Shown: in pieces, positions 4,492-25,798 of the stretch
Layout: every line of letters begins with the position of its first letter
How positions within the stretch are numbered: position 1 is the stretch's first letter
Origin: Pseudanabaena sp. lw0831
GTDB taxonomy: Bacteria > Cyanobacteriota > Cyanobacteriia > Pseudanabaenales > Pseudanabaenaceae
Assembly (NCBI RefSeq): GCF_016584665.1
Contig: NZ_BBJB01000024.1
Location: forward strand, 1 to 39,710
DNA length: 39,710 bases
Direction of reading: 5' to 3'
The notes under the pieces: generated by a model
Told to the model about the DNA's origin: nothing
What the model saw: the letters and a program-made list of their open reading frames with translations, nothing else
Databases searched by the model: none
Position numbers and translations under genes: made by a program

Positions 4492-5199
4492 TTATAAAGG
4501 TAAGGTCGGGAAATATGGCGCTAACCAAAGCTGTATCTTTACATCCCAGCCTAAAAGAATCGCGATCGCCGTAAGAGAGATCATCACGCCACCTATTTTT
4601 TGCAAAAGTTGGCTACGCGATCGCAATTTCAAGAATGATTTACTAAAGTACCGACTCGCATAGGCAAGCAATAATATCGGCAATCCTGTTCCTAATCCAT
4701 AGACAAGCAGCAAAATAAAAGCGGTGAAGATCTCATGGTCAGCGGCGGCGAGAATTAAAATGCTGCCTAGTACGGGGCCAGCACAAGGTGTCCATAACAA
4801 GCCTAATTGTGCGCCCAACCAAAATTCTCCTCCTAAGTTAACCTTGGTCGGCTCTTTGACTTTAAATGCAGGGAATTTGCTAGATACTTTGCTGATTAAG
4901 AGATAGCCCAATTTCGGGAAAATCGATAGTAAGCCCAACGCTAGCAAAAAGAAGATCGCAAAATTCCGAATAATATTGCTTAAATCTGTGAGCCAGTTAC
5001 TCGCAATTCCTAACAAGCTGCCCGCGATCGCAAATCCGCTAATCAATCCAGCTACTAGAGCCAATGGTCCATAGCGATGAGTTTGCAACGACCTACCAAC
5101 GACGATCGGCAAAATCGGCAAAATACATGGTGAGAAAGCAGTTAATAAACCACCTAATATTGCTAAACCGATTGATAATGGCGAAAGTGAGAGCGACAT
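4492..5199 (-). CDS. ccdA: CcdA/DsbD-type cytochrome c biogenesis transmembrane protein
   Basis: This 235-residue protein has six predicted membrane helices and the two conserved cysteine motifs of the CcdA/DsbD family, FSPCILPILP near residue 25 and LLWTPCAGPVLG in the middle. The family moves reducing equivalents from cytoplasmic thioredoxin across the membrane by thiol-disulfide exchange. The partner is probably the thioredoxin-like lipoprotein encoded 11 bases upstream (5211-5858), the same pairing that is fused in DipZ proteins. It could serve cytochrome maturation or the repair enzymes of this cluster. The start is the ATG at 5199. Confidence 0.9.
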   Translation of the reverse strand: MSLSLSPLSIGLAILGGLLTAFSPCILPILPIVVGRSLQTHRYGPLALVAGLISGFAIAGSLLGIASNWLTDLSNIIRNFAIFFLLALGLLSIFPKLGYLLISKVSSKFPAFKVKEPTKVNLGGEFWLGAQLGLLWTPCAGPVLGSILILAAADHEIFTAFILLLVYGLGTGLPILLLAYASRYFSKSFLKLRSRSQLLQKIGGVMISLTAIAILLGWDVKIQLWLAPYFPTLPL

Positions 5200-5210
5200 G
5201 CGCTTAAATC

Positions 5211-5858
5211 CTAGCCTAGTAATTGCTTGATGGTTTGCTCTGTGCGATCATACGCGCCTTCGCCAATGTGGTCATAGACGAGATTACCTTGGCGATCGGC
5301 TAAATACAGATGCGGCCAATATTCATTTCCATAGGCTTTCCAAGTTTTAAACTCGTTGTCAATGGGAACTGGATAAAGGATACCGTGTTTTTGCATGGCA
5401 TCTTTGATATTATTCGCATCGCGCTCAAAGGCAAACTCTGGGGTATGCACGCCAATAATCTTTAATCCTTTGGAAGCATAGCGATCGTGCCATTTTGTAA
5501 CATAGGGTAATGTGCGCTGGCAGTTGATGCAGCTAAAAGTCCAGAACTGAATCAAGACGACATTTCCCTTTAGTTCCTGAATAGTCAAAGGATTAGAATT
5601 TAACCATTGAGAAATGCCTTGGAACTCTGGCAATTTTTGACTACTTGCTTTAGATTTTTCATCCACAGCTTTAACTTCTGAATTATTTGGTTTGGTAGTA
5701 GCAGCGGTAGGATTTGATTCTACAGATGTTTTAGAAGCGATCGCTGTAGGTGGATTTGTCGAGCCGATTTGAGCAGCACATGCGGCACTCCCAATTCCTA
5801 CAGCTCCTAAGCCCAAATAAGTTAAAAAACGACGGCGGCGCAGCAATCTTACATTCAC
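5211..5858 (-). CDS. DipZ/TlpA-like thioredoxin-fold lipoprotein
   Basis: The N-terminus has a twin-arginine-like run (RRRRFLTYLGLGAVG) and a lipobox-like SAAC, so the protein is exported and probably lipid-anchored. After a Ser/Thr/Pro-rich linker the C-terminal 130 residues match the redoxin domain of DipZ proteins: FWTFSCINCQRTLPYV with the redox pair C110-I-N-C113, then GVHTPEFAFERDANNI and YWPHLYLADRQGN. I chose the GTG at 5856-5858 because GGGAG lies about 8 bases upstream. A TTG at 5873 would add five residues with no ribosome site. It would receive electrons from CcdA and reduce disulfides or sulfenic acids outside the membrane. Confidence 0.88.
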   Translation of the reverse strand: MNVRLLRRRRFLTYLGLGAVGIGSAACAAQIGSTNPPTAIASKTSVESNPTAATTKPNNSEVKAVDEKSKASSQKLPEFQGISQWLNSNPLTIQELKGNVVLIQFWTFSCINCQRTLPYVTKWHDRYASKGLKIIGVHTPEFAFERDANNIKDAMQKHGILYPVPIDNEFKTWKAYGNEYWPHLYLADRQGNLVYDHIGEGAYDRTEQTIKQLLG

Positions 5859-20435: not shown

Positions 20436-20447
20436 TCTTGAAAATTT

Positions 20448-20546
20448 CTAAGCCACGTTCAAAAATCTCATCAATCGCAAGCATTTCACCGTCAGTAGTC
20501 ATGAACTTGTGATCTTTGGTAGCTTTGATGCGATCGCTATTTTGTG
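20448..20546 (-). repeat. DnaE split-intein tail copy D (most distant from dnaE)
   Basis: The minus strand encodes [20 protein letters not shown] followed by [10 protein letters not shown], equivalent to residues about 64-92 of the DnaE-N intein. The frame then stops inside the 3' end of the CHAT gene. By eye 13 of 99 positions differ from the true dnaE tail. It has no start codon or N-terminal half, so it is a fragment. It closes the array on the CHAT side. Confidence 0.85.
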
Positions 20547-20620
20547 ATAAGAGACAATCACTAGTCCCCTATAAGTTAAGATCGGTATTAATAAACAATG
20601 AGATCCCAAATCTTGAGGCA

Positions 20621-20869
20621 ATGAGTCCAACTGTTTTTCGTAAGGATGGCTACCGTTTTTATTTTTTCTCCAGAGAAGAATCGAGGATGCACGTCCATGT
20701 TCAATCTCAACATGGTGAAGCTAAATTTTGGCTAGAACCAACGATTGAACTTTCTCAACATACAGGGATCTCTCAACGTGAAATCAATGCAGCACTTAAA
20801 CTTGTAAAAGATAATGAACAAGAAATCCGCATCTCTTGGAATAGACATTTCCCAAGTGGAAGTCACTAA
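20621..20869 (+). CDS. DUF4160 protein
   Basis: This 82-residue protein has the DUF4160 signature PTVFRKDGYRFYFFSREESR, MHVHVQSQHGEAKFW and LEPTIELS. The start is ATG 20621, after TTGAGG. A longer frame from 20516 starts inside intein-tail copy D and is not credible. It overlaps the DUF2442 gene by 56 bases. DUF4160/DUF2442 pairs are widespread and suspected toxin-antitoxin-like modules; which partner is the toxin is unknown. Confidence 0.85.
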   Translation: MSPTVFRKDGYRFYFFSREESRMHVHVQSQHGEAKFWLEPTIELSQHTGISQREINAALKLVKDNEQEIRISWNRHFPSGSH

Positions 20870-21089
20870 CATATCCCCGCATGGTCTTTGGCTACTTTTG
20901 CAAAATGAAGAAGAGCTTTTTCTACCATTTTGCGAATTCCCTTGGTTTCGAGATGCAAATATCTCCAAAATATTTAATGTAGAACTTCCATCCCCAAACC
21001 ATCTTTACTGGCCAGATTTAGATGTCGATCTATCTGTCGAATCAATTCACAATCCAGAACGCTTTCCACTCTTTAGTCAAATCGGGTAA
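20814..21089 (+). CDS. DUF2442 protein
   Basis: This 91-residue protein contains ITNISPHGLWLLL-type sequence (observed VEVTNISPHGLWLLLQNEEE), LPFCEFPWFRDANISKIFNV and LYWPDLDVDLSVESI, the DUF2442 pattern. The start at ATG 20814 lies inside the DUF4160 gene, so the two are translationally coupled. Together they form the first cassette between intein-tail copies D and C, on the strand opposite to dnaE. Confidence 0.85.
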   Translation: MNKKSASLGIDISQVEVTNISPHGLWLLLQNEEELFLPFCEFPWFRDANISKIFNVELPSPNHLYWPDLDVDLSVESIHNPERFPLFSQIG

Positions 21090-21109
21090 TTAGTTTGCAA
21101 CAGCCAAAT

Positions 21110-21218
21110 CTAACCCACGCTCAAAAATCTCATCGATCGCAAGCATCTCGCCGTCAGTAGTCATGAACTTATGATCCTTCGTAGCTTTAATGCGTTCGCC
21201 ATTTTCTATCTCATATTC
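21110..21218 (-). repeat. DnaE split-intein tail copy C
   Basis: The minus strand reads [20 protein letters not shown] then [17 protein letters not shown], and ends LAVAN-stop. The repeat begins one base after the PIN toxin stop codon (TAG at 21220-21222). By eye 9 of 109 positions differ from the dnaE tail (about 92 percent identity). Confidence 0.88.
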
Positions 21219-21219
21219 A

Positions 21220-21627
21220 CTACAAGCTCAGATAATCTGATACAGAAATAATTGCAATATCTTGAAATGGATGTAATACAAGCAGATCTCGATCGCCAGT
21301 AATAATACAATCAGCTCTTCCGTTAACGGCAAGTTCTAGAAACTTATCATCTTTGAGATCGCGGCAAATTGCAATTTTTTGAACGATTTCCACATTTTCT
21401 ACGACTGCTAAAAAATCATTAAGAAATTCATTGCGCACGATCCTTGATGAATATTTATCGAATTTAGGGCGATTAAAGATATCTTGAAGTTCTCCAATAA
21501 TTTCATTAGATATGAGAATTTGTCCACTAATAGCGGCTTTGTCAAGGGCTTTTCTTGGAGTTGATTGCTTAAAGAGAGCAGCGCTTAAAATTACATTAGA
21601 GTCAAGGACTATTCTGCTTTTACTCAT
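21220..21627 (-). CDS. PIN-domain toxin (COG1569-type)
   Basis: This 135-residue PIN domain has [14 protein letters not shown] at the N-terminus, [18 protein letters not shown], and the acidic pair regions [20 protein letters not shown] and [11 protein letters not shown]. This fits the putative toxin component PIN family with catalytic aspartates in LDSN, DLKDDKF and TGDRDL. It overlaps the upstream antitoxin by eight bases. Its stop codon abuts intein-tail copy C. It should be a ribonuclease toxin. Confidence 0.9.
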
Positions 21628-21835
21628 TGATAATTGCCTGTAAAATCTCTGTAGTTAATCCATTAGCTACAGCTTCATCACTAAGTCTATCCATCGTATT
21701 TTGCAGTTTACTGATTTTCAGGGCTTGTCTCATCCATTGATTGAGCCATACTTGAATCTGTTGTTGTTGTGCTGGTTGTGAAGATTGAAATGCTTGGGCA
21801 ATATCTTCATCTATTTGAATAGCGATCGTTTTCAT
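21620..21835 (-). CDS. Antitoxin partner of the PIN toxin
   Basis: This 71-residue protein has an N-terminal DNA-binding-like strand (MKTIAIQIDEDIAQAF), a Gln-rich middle (QQQQIQVWLNQWMRQAL) and a C-terminal tail ([20 protein letters not shown]) that resembles the toxin-binding end of small CopG/RHH-like antitoxins paired with COG1569 PIN proteins. The eight-base overlap with the toxin gene supports the pairing. Confidence 0.8.
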   Translation of the reverse strand: MKTIAIQIDEDIAQAFQSSQPAQQQQIQVWLNQWMRQALKISKLQNTMDRLSDEAVANGLTTEILQAIINE

Positions 21836-22052
21836 GATCTGTCTTGCAGTGAGATGATAGTGTTTGTAAATTATATCAGGGCAACCAATAGCTATTTATA
21901 CGGGTATAGCAACGGCAATATCTAACTGGTTAAGCGCATCTTATTTGTGGAAGGCTTACATGGAAAAGGTTTTAGCACTTTATTAGAATAATAGTAAGAA
22001 TCTTGAAATGCTTGTTCCATAAGCCTTTCAAGATTTAAATGCGCTTACCCTG
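21836..22052. repeat. Intergenic region with a MITE-like inverted repeat
   Basis: From 21927 to 22052 an imperfect inverted repeat runs GGTTAAGCGCATC...AAGGCTTA on the left and TAAGCC...ATGCGCTTACC on the right, each about 30 bp. The 12-mer GCAATATCTAAC is found on both sides (21915-21926 and 22053-22064), as a target duplication would leave. It lies exactly at the 3' edge of intein-tail copy B and has no coding capacity. Confidence 0.55.
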
Positions 22053-22188
22053 CAATATCTAACCCACGCTCAAAAATCTCATTGATCGCAAGCATTTCGC
22101 CGTCAGTAGTCATGAACTTATGATCTTTGGTAGCTCTAATGCGATCGCCATTTTCTAGCTCATATTCAAATACTTCTTAATTAACGCG
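22053..22188 (-). repeat. DnaE split-intein tail copy B
   Basis: The minus strand reads [20 protein letters not shown] then [20 protein letters not shown] and IAG-stop. Core similarity to the dnaE tail covers 22060-22168 with 7 of 109 differences by eye (about 94 percent), and weaker similarity extends to about 22188. It is located just beyond the stop of the Mrr gene. Confidence 0.88.
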
Positions 22189-22204
22189 ATCGCTTTGATT
22201 CTTT

Positions 22205-23077
22205 CTAAATATTAGTAAACCAATCCAGATCAACTTCGACAGACTCGATCATTTTAATATGAACGCCAAGCTTTAACTCCTTTAAACGATGTACTAATTG
22301 TTCTCCATCAATTAGGTCAATCGGTGGCGCACCATCTCGCGTTGCTTCCTTTATTGCATCTCTGGTAAAAGTCCCTGTTGTTACAAACAAACCTTTATCT
22401 GTTCTTCCTTGCATCGCGCCACGAAAATCTCGAATCTGACTCGCTGTAACCGATCCTTGATATCTTTTGCATTGGAATAAAACATGAAAGCTCAAAAATC
22501 CATTAATACGCGCAATTCCAACACCATCAATTCCACCATCTCCTGATTTTCCTGTTACCTGTACCTGAATGAATCCTGACTCTCGTAGCAATCTTTGGGT
22601 GAGTCGCTCAAATGCATCTGGACTAAGCGAAAGCAAAACATTATGAAGTTTTTGATGCCATGCTATTTCTTCTAAATGTTCGACAGATGCTACTAACTCA
22701 TTCGCATTATCGATATTAGCAAAATCGTCTTTCGTATTACCGTTGGCTGATTGACCTTTAACAACTCTGACAATTTCTTTAGGATCAATATCGTCTAAAT
22801 TAATTGCGGTTGAGGTTAATGCCCATACTCCACGAGCAGAATTTTCAATTAGTCCATATTTCTTCAAATAAGTTCTAGTCCAGCCTGAACGATATTCAAT
22901 CTCACTTTTGGATGTATTGCCATGGAAAACATTGAGGACTTCATCGGACAAGTTTAATATGCGGAACACTTCATCGTTAATTTCTTCAATTGTTCCAGAG
23001 CCACCCAAATTTTTTAGCCCTTGAAGAATAGGAAGAAGTAGAGCATCGTATGTGGGGACTATTTGTGGCTGACTCAT
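22205..23077 (-). CDS. mrr: Mrr-family restriction endonuclease
   Basis: This 290-residue protein has an N-terminal winged-helix Mrr_N part (residues 1-90, IVPTYDALLLPILQGLKNLG) and a C-terminal PD-(D/E)XK Mrr catalytic domain. The latter is shown by AFERLTQRLLRESGFIQVQV, TGKSGDGGIDGVG, VLFQCKRYQGSVTASQIRDF and GLFVTTGTFTRDAIKEA. The Asp of GGIDG and the QCK lysine are the expected metal-site residues. Mrr enzymes cut modified DNA. The gene lies 32 bases downstream of dnaE-N and upstream of intein-tail copy B, so it is inserted between two copies of the intein 3' end. Confidence 0.92.
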   Translation of the reverse strand: MSQPQIVPTYDALLLPILQGLKNLGGSGTIEEINDEVFRILNLSDEVLNVFHGNTSKSEIEYRSGWTRTYLKKYGLIENSARGVWALTSTAINLDDIDPKEIVRVVKGQSANGNTKDDFANIDNANELVASVEHLEEIAWHQKLHNVLLSLSPDAFERLTQRLLRESGFIQVQVTGKSGDGGIDGVGIARINGFLSFHVLFQCKRYQGSVTASQIRDFRGAMQGRTDKGLFVTTGTFTRDAIKEATRDGAPPIDLIDGEQLVHRLKELKLGVHIKMIESVEVDLDWFTNI

Positions 23078-23109
23078 GAAAAATAAAAACGATTTTATCT
23101 TGCTACTTA

Positions 23110-25701
23110 TTATAGGATCTTTGTGATATCTAACTCTCGCTCGAAAATCTCATCGATCGCAAGCATCTCGCCGTCAGTAGTCATGAACTTGTGATCTTTG
23201 GTAGCTCTAATGCGATCGCCATTTTCTAACTCATATTCAAAGACTTCTTGATTGCCGCGATTGTGCCATTGTGCGATCGGTTGAGTATAGACAAATCCAT
23301 TCTCATCCACACTATAAACTTGGCATTCAATTTGATGTTCTACGATTTTACCGATGGGCATCAGACCAAATTCCACAGTTCGCACCAGCGTATCGTAACT
23401 GAGACAATATTCCGCAAAAATCACCATCTGATCGAAGAGATCATTGGAAATCTCTGATCTAATGCCATTCTTAGCACAACCATCAAGGAAAATAGAACGC
23501 TGTTTCTCCATCTCTTCGGGCTTCTTTTTACCCATCGCCCGCCGCAACATATCCGCAGCACCGAGGGAATATCCCGCCAGTTCCTGCGCCATCTTCATGA
23601 TCTGCTCTTGATAGCAAAGGACTCCATAAGTGTTATTCAGTATGGGTTCCAGAGTATGGTGCTGATACTCGATCGCTTCTCGACCATGCTTACGATTAAT
23701 AAACTTAGGAATTAGTCCTGCATCCAATGGACCTGGACGATAGAGGGCAAGAATAGAAGAAATATCTTCAATATTGGAAGGTTTGAGATCTTTTACAATC
23801 TGCTTCATGCCAGATGATTCTAATTGGAAGACTCCTTCTAGATCGCCTTTTTCGAGTAGCTTATAGGTTTTTTGATTTGCCTCCGTGGACATATCAGGCG
23901 CGATCGCATCAATATGGAAATTCGGATCTTGGTTGTCGCGAATTAGCTTACTGGTATGCTCAATCGTCGTGAGATTTCGCAGTCCCAAGAAGTCCATCTT
24001 CAGCAAGCCAAGGGACTCTAAATCTTCCATGGTGTATTGCGTGACCACCTGACCTTCATTGCTGCGCTGCAATGGCACAACCTCATCCAAGGGGAATGGC
24101 GAAATAACTACACCAGCCGCATGAACACCTGAACTTTTGTTCACGCCTTCGATCCGCATTGCCATATCTAGCCATTCAAATACCTTGGCATCATTTTTGT
24201 AGCGATCGCGAAATTCTGGTGCTGGTGATTCTTCGGAAATCATGACCTTCAGCTTGGCTGGTTTTCCACGCGATACAGGAATCATCTTCGCCATCTTATC
24301 GGATTCGCTGTAGGAGACATCCAGCACTCGTGCCACATCTTTGAGGACTGCCTTAGAGGTCAAACGGTTAAAGGTGACAATCTGCGCGACTCGCTCCTGT
24401 CCATAGCGCTGAGTCACATAATCAATTAATTCACTACGGTGATCGATACAGAAGTCAGTATCAATATCAGGCATTGACTTCCGTTCGGGATTGAGGAATC
24501 TTTCAAATAGAAGTCCATGATGGATCGGATCAATATTAGTAATACCGAGGGAATAGGCAACTAGCGAACCCGCCGCACTCCCACGCCCAGGCCCCACAGG
24601 AATCTTTTTATCTCTGGCATATTTGATGTAGTCCCACACGACTAGGAAATAAGTCGCAAACCCCATTTGCATGATGATGCCTAGCTCAAAACGCAAACGC
24701 TCTTGATATTCCGCCGAAATTTCAGCATGAGTTTTGGCATTAAATCTTTGTAATAAGCCTTGCCATGTCACTTCTTCAAAGTAGGTATCCGCAGTATGTC
24801 CTTCAGGGATGGGATAATCGGCAGCACTGGGATCGCGCATCAAGTCGTAGGGCTTGACTTTAGCGGCTGCTTTGAGCGTATTAGCGAGAGATTCTTCGAT
24901 CACGTCATCTTCCAAATGATCGCGAAATAACTGCTTCATCTCGTCATAGGATTTGAAATATTCCATGCCGCTATAACGCAGTCGTTTTTCATCGGAAATT
25001 AATTTTCCAGTTTGGATGCAGAGCAGCGCATCATGGGCTTCCACATCCATGCAAGAAGTAAAGTGAGAGTCATTTGTGGCGATTACCTTGATATCTAATT
25101 CTTTGGCAATCTTGCAAATTTCCACGTTCACAACTCGATCTTCAGGATATCCATGATCTTGAATTTCCAGATAATAATCATCGCCAAAATGTTCTTTATA
25201 CCAAGCTGCTACTTCCCGCGCTAGTTTCGGATCGCCGTTCATAATTGCTTGGGGAACTTCCCCTGCTAAGCAACCAGAGGTGAGCATTAAGCCTTCTTTG
25301 TATTGCAGTAAATACTCTTTGTTAATACAAGGACGCGCAAAAATTCCTTTGCCTTGGTAGCCCTGTAAATGGGAAATTGTGGTGAGTTTAACCAAATTCC
25401 GATAGCCCTGCGTATCCTTCGCGAGGACACATTGGTGATACTTTTTCTTCTTGTCTTCTCTCTTGTATTGGATCGTAATGTCGCCATTCAAGACATACAT
25501 TTCATTGCCAATGATTGGCTTAATCCCCTTAGATTTACAGATCTTGATTAGCTCGATCGCTCCATACATGACCCCATGATCGGTCAAGGCGATCGCAGGC
25601 ATCCCCAGCTCCACAGCGCGATTGACCATATCAGGGATTTGGCTTGCCCCATCGAGCAAACTATATTCGGTATGAACGTGCAGCCCAACAAATCCAGTCA
25701 T
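23110..25701 (-). CDS. dnaE: DNA polymerase III alpha subunit, N-terminal half fused to split-intein N fragment
   Basis: This 863-residue protein holds the DnaE N-extein (residues 1-765), with the PHP domain start [16 protein letters not shown] and polymerase palm aspartates in PDIDTDF. From Cys766 it continues as a 98-residue intein N half ([20 protein letters not shown] ... RATKDHKF ... IDEIFEREL). The nucleophile Cys1 and the block B Thr-x-x-His (TKDH) are present. As in most cyanobacteria, a separately encoded IntC-DnaE-C protein must be elsewhere, and protein trans-splicing joins the halves into replicative polymerase. The tail ends ELDITKIL, slightly shorter than typical 102-residue IntN. 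The start is the ATG at 25701. Confidence 0.97.
23113..23406 (-). other. DnaE split-intein N fragment (IntN) coding segment, including tail copy A
   Basis: This encodes the 98 residues from Cys1 to the stop. The last third (core 23130-23238) is the segment repeated as copies B, C and D. In the copies the residue pair corresponding to EREL reads ERGL, so the genuine gene differs from all three copies at this point. Confidence 0.93.
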
Positions 25702-25743: not shown

Positions 25744-25798
25744 ATAAACCCAAAGTAGAGTGGCGGCGCTTCGCGCCGCCACTCTACTTTGGGTTTAT
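25744..25798 (-). repeat. Perfect 26-bp-arm palindrome, loop GCGAAGC on minus strand (family member 8)
   Basis: ATAAACCCAAAGTAGAGTGG...CGGCGC and its complement flank TTC. It lies in the 178-base divergent region between dnaE (minus) and the PBP gene (plus), so it is in both 5' regions. Confidence 0.6.

Follow-up and report, generated by a model that had tools for sequence, protein, structure and literature searches.

A genus-specific gene array behind the split-intein end of dnaE-N in Pseudanabaena, with an Mrr nuclease gene as its probable cargo

In a stretch of 39,710 nucleotides from Pseudanabaena sp. lw0831 (contig NZ_BBJB01000024.1, positions 1 to 39,710; the whole stretch is called the window here), a gene for an Mrr-type nuclease lies directly behind dnaE-N, the gene for the N-terminal half of DNA polymerase III alpha, which ends in the split-intein half IntN. 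Does this nuclease move genes into the end of the intein gene, or is it one of the genes that were moved? Our reading, to which we give a probability of about two in three, is that the Mrr gene is cargo and not mover in an array that is specific to the genus and seated on the 3' end of dnaE-N, and that the copies of the IntN tail within the array serve as homology arms for recombination of the RecA type. An earlier note on this DNA had left both roles open for the Mrr gene, a defence gene that used the site or a helper that brings cassettes into the tail; the first fits what we found, since the gene is one of several passenger units, and the second is not supported. The comparison covers 26 Pseudanabaena genomes (drafts), in which G000 is the genome of the window and the other labels of the form G0xx are further members of the genus. 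The array is made up in the window as follows, read from dnaE-N outwards.

23110..25701, minus strand: dnaE-N, ending in the split-intein half IntN (open reading frame, ORF; PRK09532; intein_Nterm TIGR01445)
23126..23261, minus strand: tail copy 1, the functional copy, within the IntN coding sequence (direct repeat family D1)
22205..23077, minus strand: Mrr-type nuclease gene (Mrr_N and Mrr_cat), passenger of unit 1 (ORF of 290 aa with ATG start; Pfam, PADLOC and dN/dS, the ratio of nonsynonymous to synonymous substitution rates)
22055..22190, minus strand: tail copy 2, on the side of the Mrr unit away from dnaE-N; identity with copy 1 is 92% over 136 nt
21927..22051, minus strand: insertion of 125 nt resembling a miniature inverted-repeat transposable element (MITE), with imperfect inverted ends, between copy 2 and the leader of the PIN gene (read by eye)
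21620..21835, minus strand: small ORF 5' of the PIN toxin, probable antitoxin, without family match; related ORFs stand at the same place in G014, G018 and G024
21220..21627, minus strand: PIN_3 / TIGR00305 toxin, passenger of unit 2 (Pfam and NCBIfam match)
21106..21219, minus strand: tail copy 3, immediately after the PIN stop codon (direct repeat)
20814..21089, plus strand: DUF2442 gene, passenger of unit 3, on the opposite strand (Pfam)
20516..20869, plus strand: DUF4160 gene, passenger of unit 3 (Pfam); the unit including its tail is common to G018 and G020
20444..20543, minus strand: tail copy 4, the last of the array, 88% identical to copy 1

The tail is found in its own genome in these four places only, and its copies enclose the Mrr gene, the PIN toxin with its small partner, and the DUF4160/DUF2442 genes. 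Exactly 32 bases (23078-23109) separate the stop of dnaE-N from the Mrr start, as the earlier note had it, and its second copy of the intein tail on the other side of the Mrr gene is real and is one of four; the span that it marked, 22205-23406, holds the Mrr gene and most of IntN and leaves the bounding tail copy just outside. The MITE-like insertion is bordered by a 12-nt direct repeat, GTTAGATATTGC, at 21915-21926 and 22052-22063. The listed TTG start of the DUF4160 gene overlaps tail copy 4, and the true start is probably later.

The assignment of the protein to the PD-(D/E)XK Mrr-type enzymes is borne out by the family matches. Mrr_cat is matched with an E value of 2.7e-31 (108.5 bits against a Pfam cut-off of 21) and Mrr_N with 5.2e-17 (62.2 bits against 29.5), and the PADLOC matches include PDC-S02 and mREase_IV. 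Apart from a weak RRG7, all Pfam and PADLOC matches are of the restriction-nuclease type. The sole solved structure matched by the sequence is the restriction endonuclease 4f0p, weakly (E 0.00064) and over the catalytic domain. D..QxK are catalytic residues of the PD-(D/E)XK type; they are intact here, and the stretch SGDGGID..FQCK that contains them is kept in all four Mrr orthologues and aligns with the same stretch of 4f0p. The gene is under purifying selection, with dN/dS of 0.08-0.14 in all six pairs of these orthologues. Homing endonucleases belong to families such as LAGLIDADG, HNH, GIY-YIG and Vsr-like, and no homing-endonuclease family is among the Pfam, NCBIfam and PADLOC matches of the Mrr protein. 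From these matches we infer a modification-dependent (type IV) restriction enzyme.

How far does the array extend over the genus and beyond it? An IntN match is present in 25 of the 26 genus genomes, and the 3' flanks of dnaE-N in all 25 were searched with a profile of the tail. Extra tail matches were found in 13 flanks, with 1-5 in each and 28 in total, all oriented as dnaE-N. The 28 count two tails twice, which are split by small insertions in G015 and G027, and correspond to about 26 tails; G010, G016, G017 and G022 have further tails, on other contigs or at a distance of about 30 kb, which are not counted here. The 13 flanks are a lower bound, given that five flanks are cut short by contig ends (G025, 941 nt; G013, 779; G017, 402; G016, 1245; G030, 1525). 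The distant case in G022 is a block of tail, Uma2 gene, large reverse-strand gene and tail (L070, 5523-9500), which is on the opposite strand to dnaE-N, at a distance of about 30 kb, and looks like an inversion with one break inside the array. A survey of the phylum (291 genomes) gave 79 genomes outside the genus with a DnaE-type IntN, and 40 of their dnaE-N 3' flanks were taken. Each of the 38 flanks longer than 1.5 kb was compared with its own tail, and none has a second one. A nuclease scan of 69 ORFs from 39 of these 40 loci gave Uma2 in two, and HigB in the first member, among the best 25 of 89 families; isolated nuclease matches may be among the other families. As a background, 40 samples of 20 kb (800 kb, from G014 and G029) were searched for 3'-end copies of their own genes, with a threshold of 50 nt and 50 bits that short or badly decayed copies escape. 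None of the 375 ORFs of at least 150 aa has a copy of its 3' end alone within 5 kb downstream; two have a downstream 3'-end match, and both are tandem paralogues matching along the gene body. For arrays of dnaE-N tails, no match was found by title or abstract start in the open-access literature, a scope that leaves most subscription papers outside.

Two side observations concern dnaE-N itself. Shortly before its start (window 25744-25798) stands an inverted repeat with perfect arms of 26 bp around a 3-nt loop, probably a terminator or a small repeat element. Some genus genomes carry an extra insertion of about 146 aa, longer in some, near residue 696 of dnaE-N (for example L073, about 5023-5462, and L074, about 5022-5461, in open frames of 1010-1300 aa); it is absent from the window copy and is probably a second intein.

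The units carry different genes in different species. By Pfam the passengers are Mrr, Uma2, PIN, MazE/PemK-type, ParE with a Phd-like partner (whose match is below the family cut-off), YefM/YoeB, DUF4160/DUF2442 and a protein with a 'Cytotoxic' domain; of ten passenger proteins scanned with Pfam, two had no match, one being an ORF of G018 and the other the protein that is paired with the Cytotoxic one. The same units appear in different order and company. The order is Mrr-PIN-DUF4160 in the window, Uma2-YoeB-..-PIN-..-DUF4160 in G018, DUF4160-YoeB-..-Cytotoxic pair in G020, and ParE-MazF-..-PIN in G024. Units are held in common by G000 and G011 (Mrr, also in G027 with a broken tail), G000, G014, G018 and G024 (PIN), G000, G018 and G020 (DUF4160/DUF2442), G008 and G018 (Uma2), G015 and G021 (MazEF), and G015 and G024 (ParE), and the DNA shared between species extends from the passenger gene into the tail. 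In G018 and G024 the PIN gene has suffered internal deletions, and therefore some passengers are no longer active.

The tails tell two different histories. Their 5' edge is specific to the unit: for 22 junctions of 8 units, degraded ones included, the scatter within units was reached by 5 of 20,000 shuffles. A separate compilation of the junctions passes over five matches that stop before the tail end. The tail bodies, compared on profile positions 100-186, are not sorted by unit. Of the 13 extra tails that have a partner from the same unit in another species, one is closest to that partner, and crossovers inside the tail would leave such a pattern. Many tails are decaying. Among the extra tails that reach profile position 184 or beyond (n = 23), 10 are open without net insertion or deletion; this speaks against extra tails as coding duplicates under selection, and that explanation was rejected. 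A recent case is that of G014, where a PIN gene lies between 601-nt repeats of 99.5% identity, with the right end at the usual junction of PIN and tail and the left end in unrelated DNA. G029 and G032 are sisters in the dnaE-N tree (SH-aLRT 99), and a ParE/Phd-like unit in the former and a Uma2 unit in the latter precede a similar tail end and distal flank (46 nt, 89%). On this short stretch, the difference looks like a unit swap.

By what process could such an array grow? A unit consists of one or two passenger genes and a 5'-truncated IntN tail on the side distal to dnaE-N. The copy in front must keep IntN working, so a new unit would be accepted only if it leaves a complete tail there, and it would push the older tail or tails downstream. 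A new unit would be joined at one end through the tail and at the other end illegitimately, which would leave a direct repeat around the insert. The ends of the G014 repeat fit such a joining, by homology in the tail at one end and illegitimate at the other, between two copies of the chromosome. The tails are about 80-160 nt of closely related DNA, through which ordinary homologous recombination (RecA) may carry units from strain to strain and change their order. The units perhaps arrive in DNA taken up by transformation; a ComEC domain (PF03772) is present in 25 of the 26 genus genomes, and DNA uptake is therefore possible. The RecA-type recombination, the route by DNA uptake and the selection for an intact front tail are what we infer from comparing the sequences.

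Where do the Mrr genes of other genomes stand? The Mrr unit is behind dnaE-N in G000, G011 and G027, and G019 keeps a remnant with only the last Mrr codons and a broken tail. In G017 the dnaE-N tail passes straight into the PIN leader, which is 94% identical over 140 nt to that of the window, where the Mrr gene and copy 2 intervene, and this arrangement is close to an empty site for Mrr. At the 3' end of the G017 contig (L052) other DNA, which is probably an insertion sequence, breaks the PIN unit about 25 codons into the antitoxin. Pseudanabaena SR411 has an Mrr gene 95% identical to that of the window with the same leader (from AAGATCC on) and no tail, elsewhere in its genome, where it follows an ABC-transporter-type gene (name read from the translation). 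Because this leader exists away from dnaE-N, it seems to be the Mrr leader that encodes part of the last IntN residues (ITKIL and variants). G014 has a related Mrr gene, 85% identical, which is also away from dnaE-N and without a tail. Mrr_cat is found at 55 places in the genus, 3 at dnaE-N and 52 elsewhere, and the 7 loci searched around other genus Mrr_cat genes, two of them one and the same place, contain no tail. Near another Mrr_cat gene of G000 (C80; L157, 7195-8727) there are local direct repeats, 65 and 121 nt long and 0.5-0.7 kb apart, which are not the intein tail.

These places bear directly on the proposal that Mrr is a free-standing mobility partner, which cuts the unoccupied and perhaps modified tail and promotes insertion as homing endonucleases do. 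The gene is intact and selected, it sits directly behind IntN in 3 of 25 genomes with the remnant in a fourth, and the tail consensus has four HIP1-like sites that are possibly methylated. The genomic data nevertheless argue against a general mobility role, and we hold the proposal to be extremely doubtful. Arrays occur in genomes that have no Mrr_cat match, with 2 extra tail matches in G008, 3 in G015, 3 in G020 and 1 in G021 (an absence that is provisional in drafts), while G031 has neither; the mean number of extra tail matches is 0.95 in genomes with Mrr_cat and 1.8 in those without; other units carry no Mrr; and the protein has no homing-endonuclease match. The large majority of genus Mrr_cat matches are away from dnaE-N, and dnaE-N is present in only 2 of 80 loci with related Mrr genes, both from Pseudanabaena. 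The earlier note had proposed a survey of dnaE-N 3' flanks for recurrent nuclease genes and had named a lack of Mrr enrichment there as part of what would refute the mobility role. Outside the genus Mrr shows no such enrichment among the matches listed (down to E of about 3e-10): 41 genomes have both a DnaE-type IntN and a listed Mrr_cat, and the nearest of 23 pairs on the same contig is 142 kb apart. Inside the genus Mrr appears over-represented, as other passengers likewise do (no significance test).

Could the tail instead be the attachment site of an integron integrase or another site-specific recombinase, and the units integron-like cassettes? The core motif of integrons is GTTRRRY, which the tail end GTTAGAT fits; the layout of a gene with a repeated segment is cassette-like, and IntI (TIGR02249) exceeds its cut-off in 13 of the 26 Pseudanabaena genomes, compared with 13 of 289 in the rest of the survey. 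This explanation is nonetheless highly unlikely. G008, G011, G015, G019 and G024 have arrays without an above-cut-off IntI, and the number of tails does not differ significantly between the 13 genomes with IntI and the 12 without (P 0.26). Twenty loci that carry IntI genes or fragments of them gave no match to the tail below E 0.1, and six out-group genomes with both IntI and IntN have a single IntN match each. The tail folds no better than shuffled DNA (z 0.20 to 0.81 for two copies on both strands) and forms no attC-like hairpin, and the Mrr junction is about 12 nt beyond the integron core. An integron integrase does stand in G014 (L199, 1649-7106), with nearby repeats that resemble attC by eye, and several other genomes keep only fragments. 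In a related proposal, a dedicated and so far unrecognised gene-capture system would use the tail as its attachment site and act there at HIP1-like sequences (GCGATCGC), so that the array would be an integrase-free cassette array of toxin-antitoxin and nuclease genes. It is raised because 7 of 8 unit junctions have a HIP1-like site no more than 6 nt away (P 0.02), the PIN unit starts near one point in four species, and no array exists at other sampled genes. The junction test took one position per unit and left out degraded junctions; with a tolerance of 0 nt P is 0.07 and with 3 nt it is 0.11, and the association is suggestive at best. According to passages of one paper on HIP1, there is some reported link to site-specific and illegitimate recombination and no evidence for a link to homologous recombination (PMC4390886). 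We regard a dedicated capture system as quite unlikely. A passive history, in which single ancient insertions with long target duplications were followed by vertical inheritance, loss and decay while strains exchanged no units, is unlikely as well. It would agree with the decay of many tails, with the internally deleted PIN genes, with the tails behind Uma2 that are internally deleted in G015, G022, G032 and L070 (the first three retain no other there), and with some sharing that follows the tree, as for Mrr in G000, G019 and G027. What it does not account for is that one unit has a different order and neighbourhood across species, that tail bodies are not grouped by unit, that the G014 repeat is recent and that the sisters G029 and G032 hold different units.

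Several points weigh against the reading of the Mrr gene as cargo in an array that grows by homologous recombination. Extra tail matches are missing from 12 of the 25 genus flanks, 8 of which are longer than 1.6 kb, and the model leaves unexplained why tails arise at dnaE-N and not at other genes, as in the 375 ORFs of the background. The shared DNA of the PIN unit (G000, G014, G018, G024) starts near the antitoxin start codon, and this start is more regular than random illegitimate joining predicts; against this, G017 too has the leader of the window. The Mrr gene of SR411, with leader and without tail, means that Mrr DNA also moves or persists tail-free. The patchiness of the units on the dnaE-N tree, with 4 changes for Mrr and 5 for Uma2, speaks for the reading, but the tree is that of a single gene that may itself recombine and has many weak forks, and vertical descent and loss explain part of this patchiness. 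No recombination intermediate or transfer event was observed in the genomes compared. As to carriers, phage records gave no match, and viral contigs had no exact match of one tail pattern. Plasmids as carriers of the units were rejected, as plasmid records gave two matches of about 67%, both inside Mrr.

What would the array mean if the reading of Mrr as cargo holds? It suggests that accessory genes can build up as an array at the end of a core replication gene with no recognised recombinase involved, the split-intein end being the portable repeat. If so, it would be a cheap test system for the capture of toxin-antitoxin and restriction genes in cyanobacteria, and for a possible role of the abundant HIP1 octamer in promoting illegitimate recombination. 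The case also speaks against taking every nuclease next to a split intein for a homing partner.

In its domains (Mrr_N and Mrr_cat), intact D..QxK, mREase_IV match and weak match to 4f0p, the protein is like the Mrr-type type IV restriction endonucleases; unlike known enzymes of this kind, it is encoded behind a split-intein gene in a tail-bracketed unit. Fractured genes with split inteins and free-standing endonucleases were reportedly described by Dassa et al. in 2009. The present case is like them in that a nuclease gene adjoins a split-intein gene, but the Mrr enzyme matches no homing-endonuclease family, is not recurrent outside the genus among the matches listed, and is dispensable for the occupancy of the tail. 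Toxin-antitoxin genes are common cargo in integrons, and the integron cassette arrays likewise join a gene with a repeated segment in variable order; the dnaE-N arrays differ in showing no integrase requirement and no attC-like fold. In Streptococcus pneumoniae, as far as the passages of one study on this point go, tandem duplications arise on transformation with a fragment that is partly repeated in the chromosome, by alternative pairing between chromatids (PMC3784515). The duplications given there are of about 100-900 kb, against dnaE-N tail repeats of 0.1-0.6 kb with new cargo between them. For Rhs loci, parts of one paper describe fragments of the main gene downstream together with toxin cargo, and evidence for recombination with the main gene (PMC3967940). 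Compared with what is given there, the dnaE-N arrays are alike in having displaced 3'-end fragments downstream with toxin-type cargo (28 extra matches in 13 of 25 genomes) and a shared segment that permits recombination. The mosaic tails and the different units in sister genomes fit recombination of the Rhs type, with no event observed. On the same basis, the arrays differ in that the main gene is half of a replicative polymerase and not a toxin, that the cargo genes are separate reading frames, that only the very last IntN residues vary, from a few to about a dozen, unlike an Rhs toxin tip, and that the array is known from sequence alone. In its logic the array resembles the displaced 3'-end arrays of Rhs and, in outline, the cassettes of integrons; what is unusual is that it does so with no evident recombinase and from a seat on the split-intein half of a replicative polymerase.

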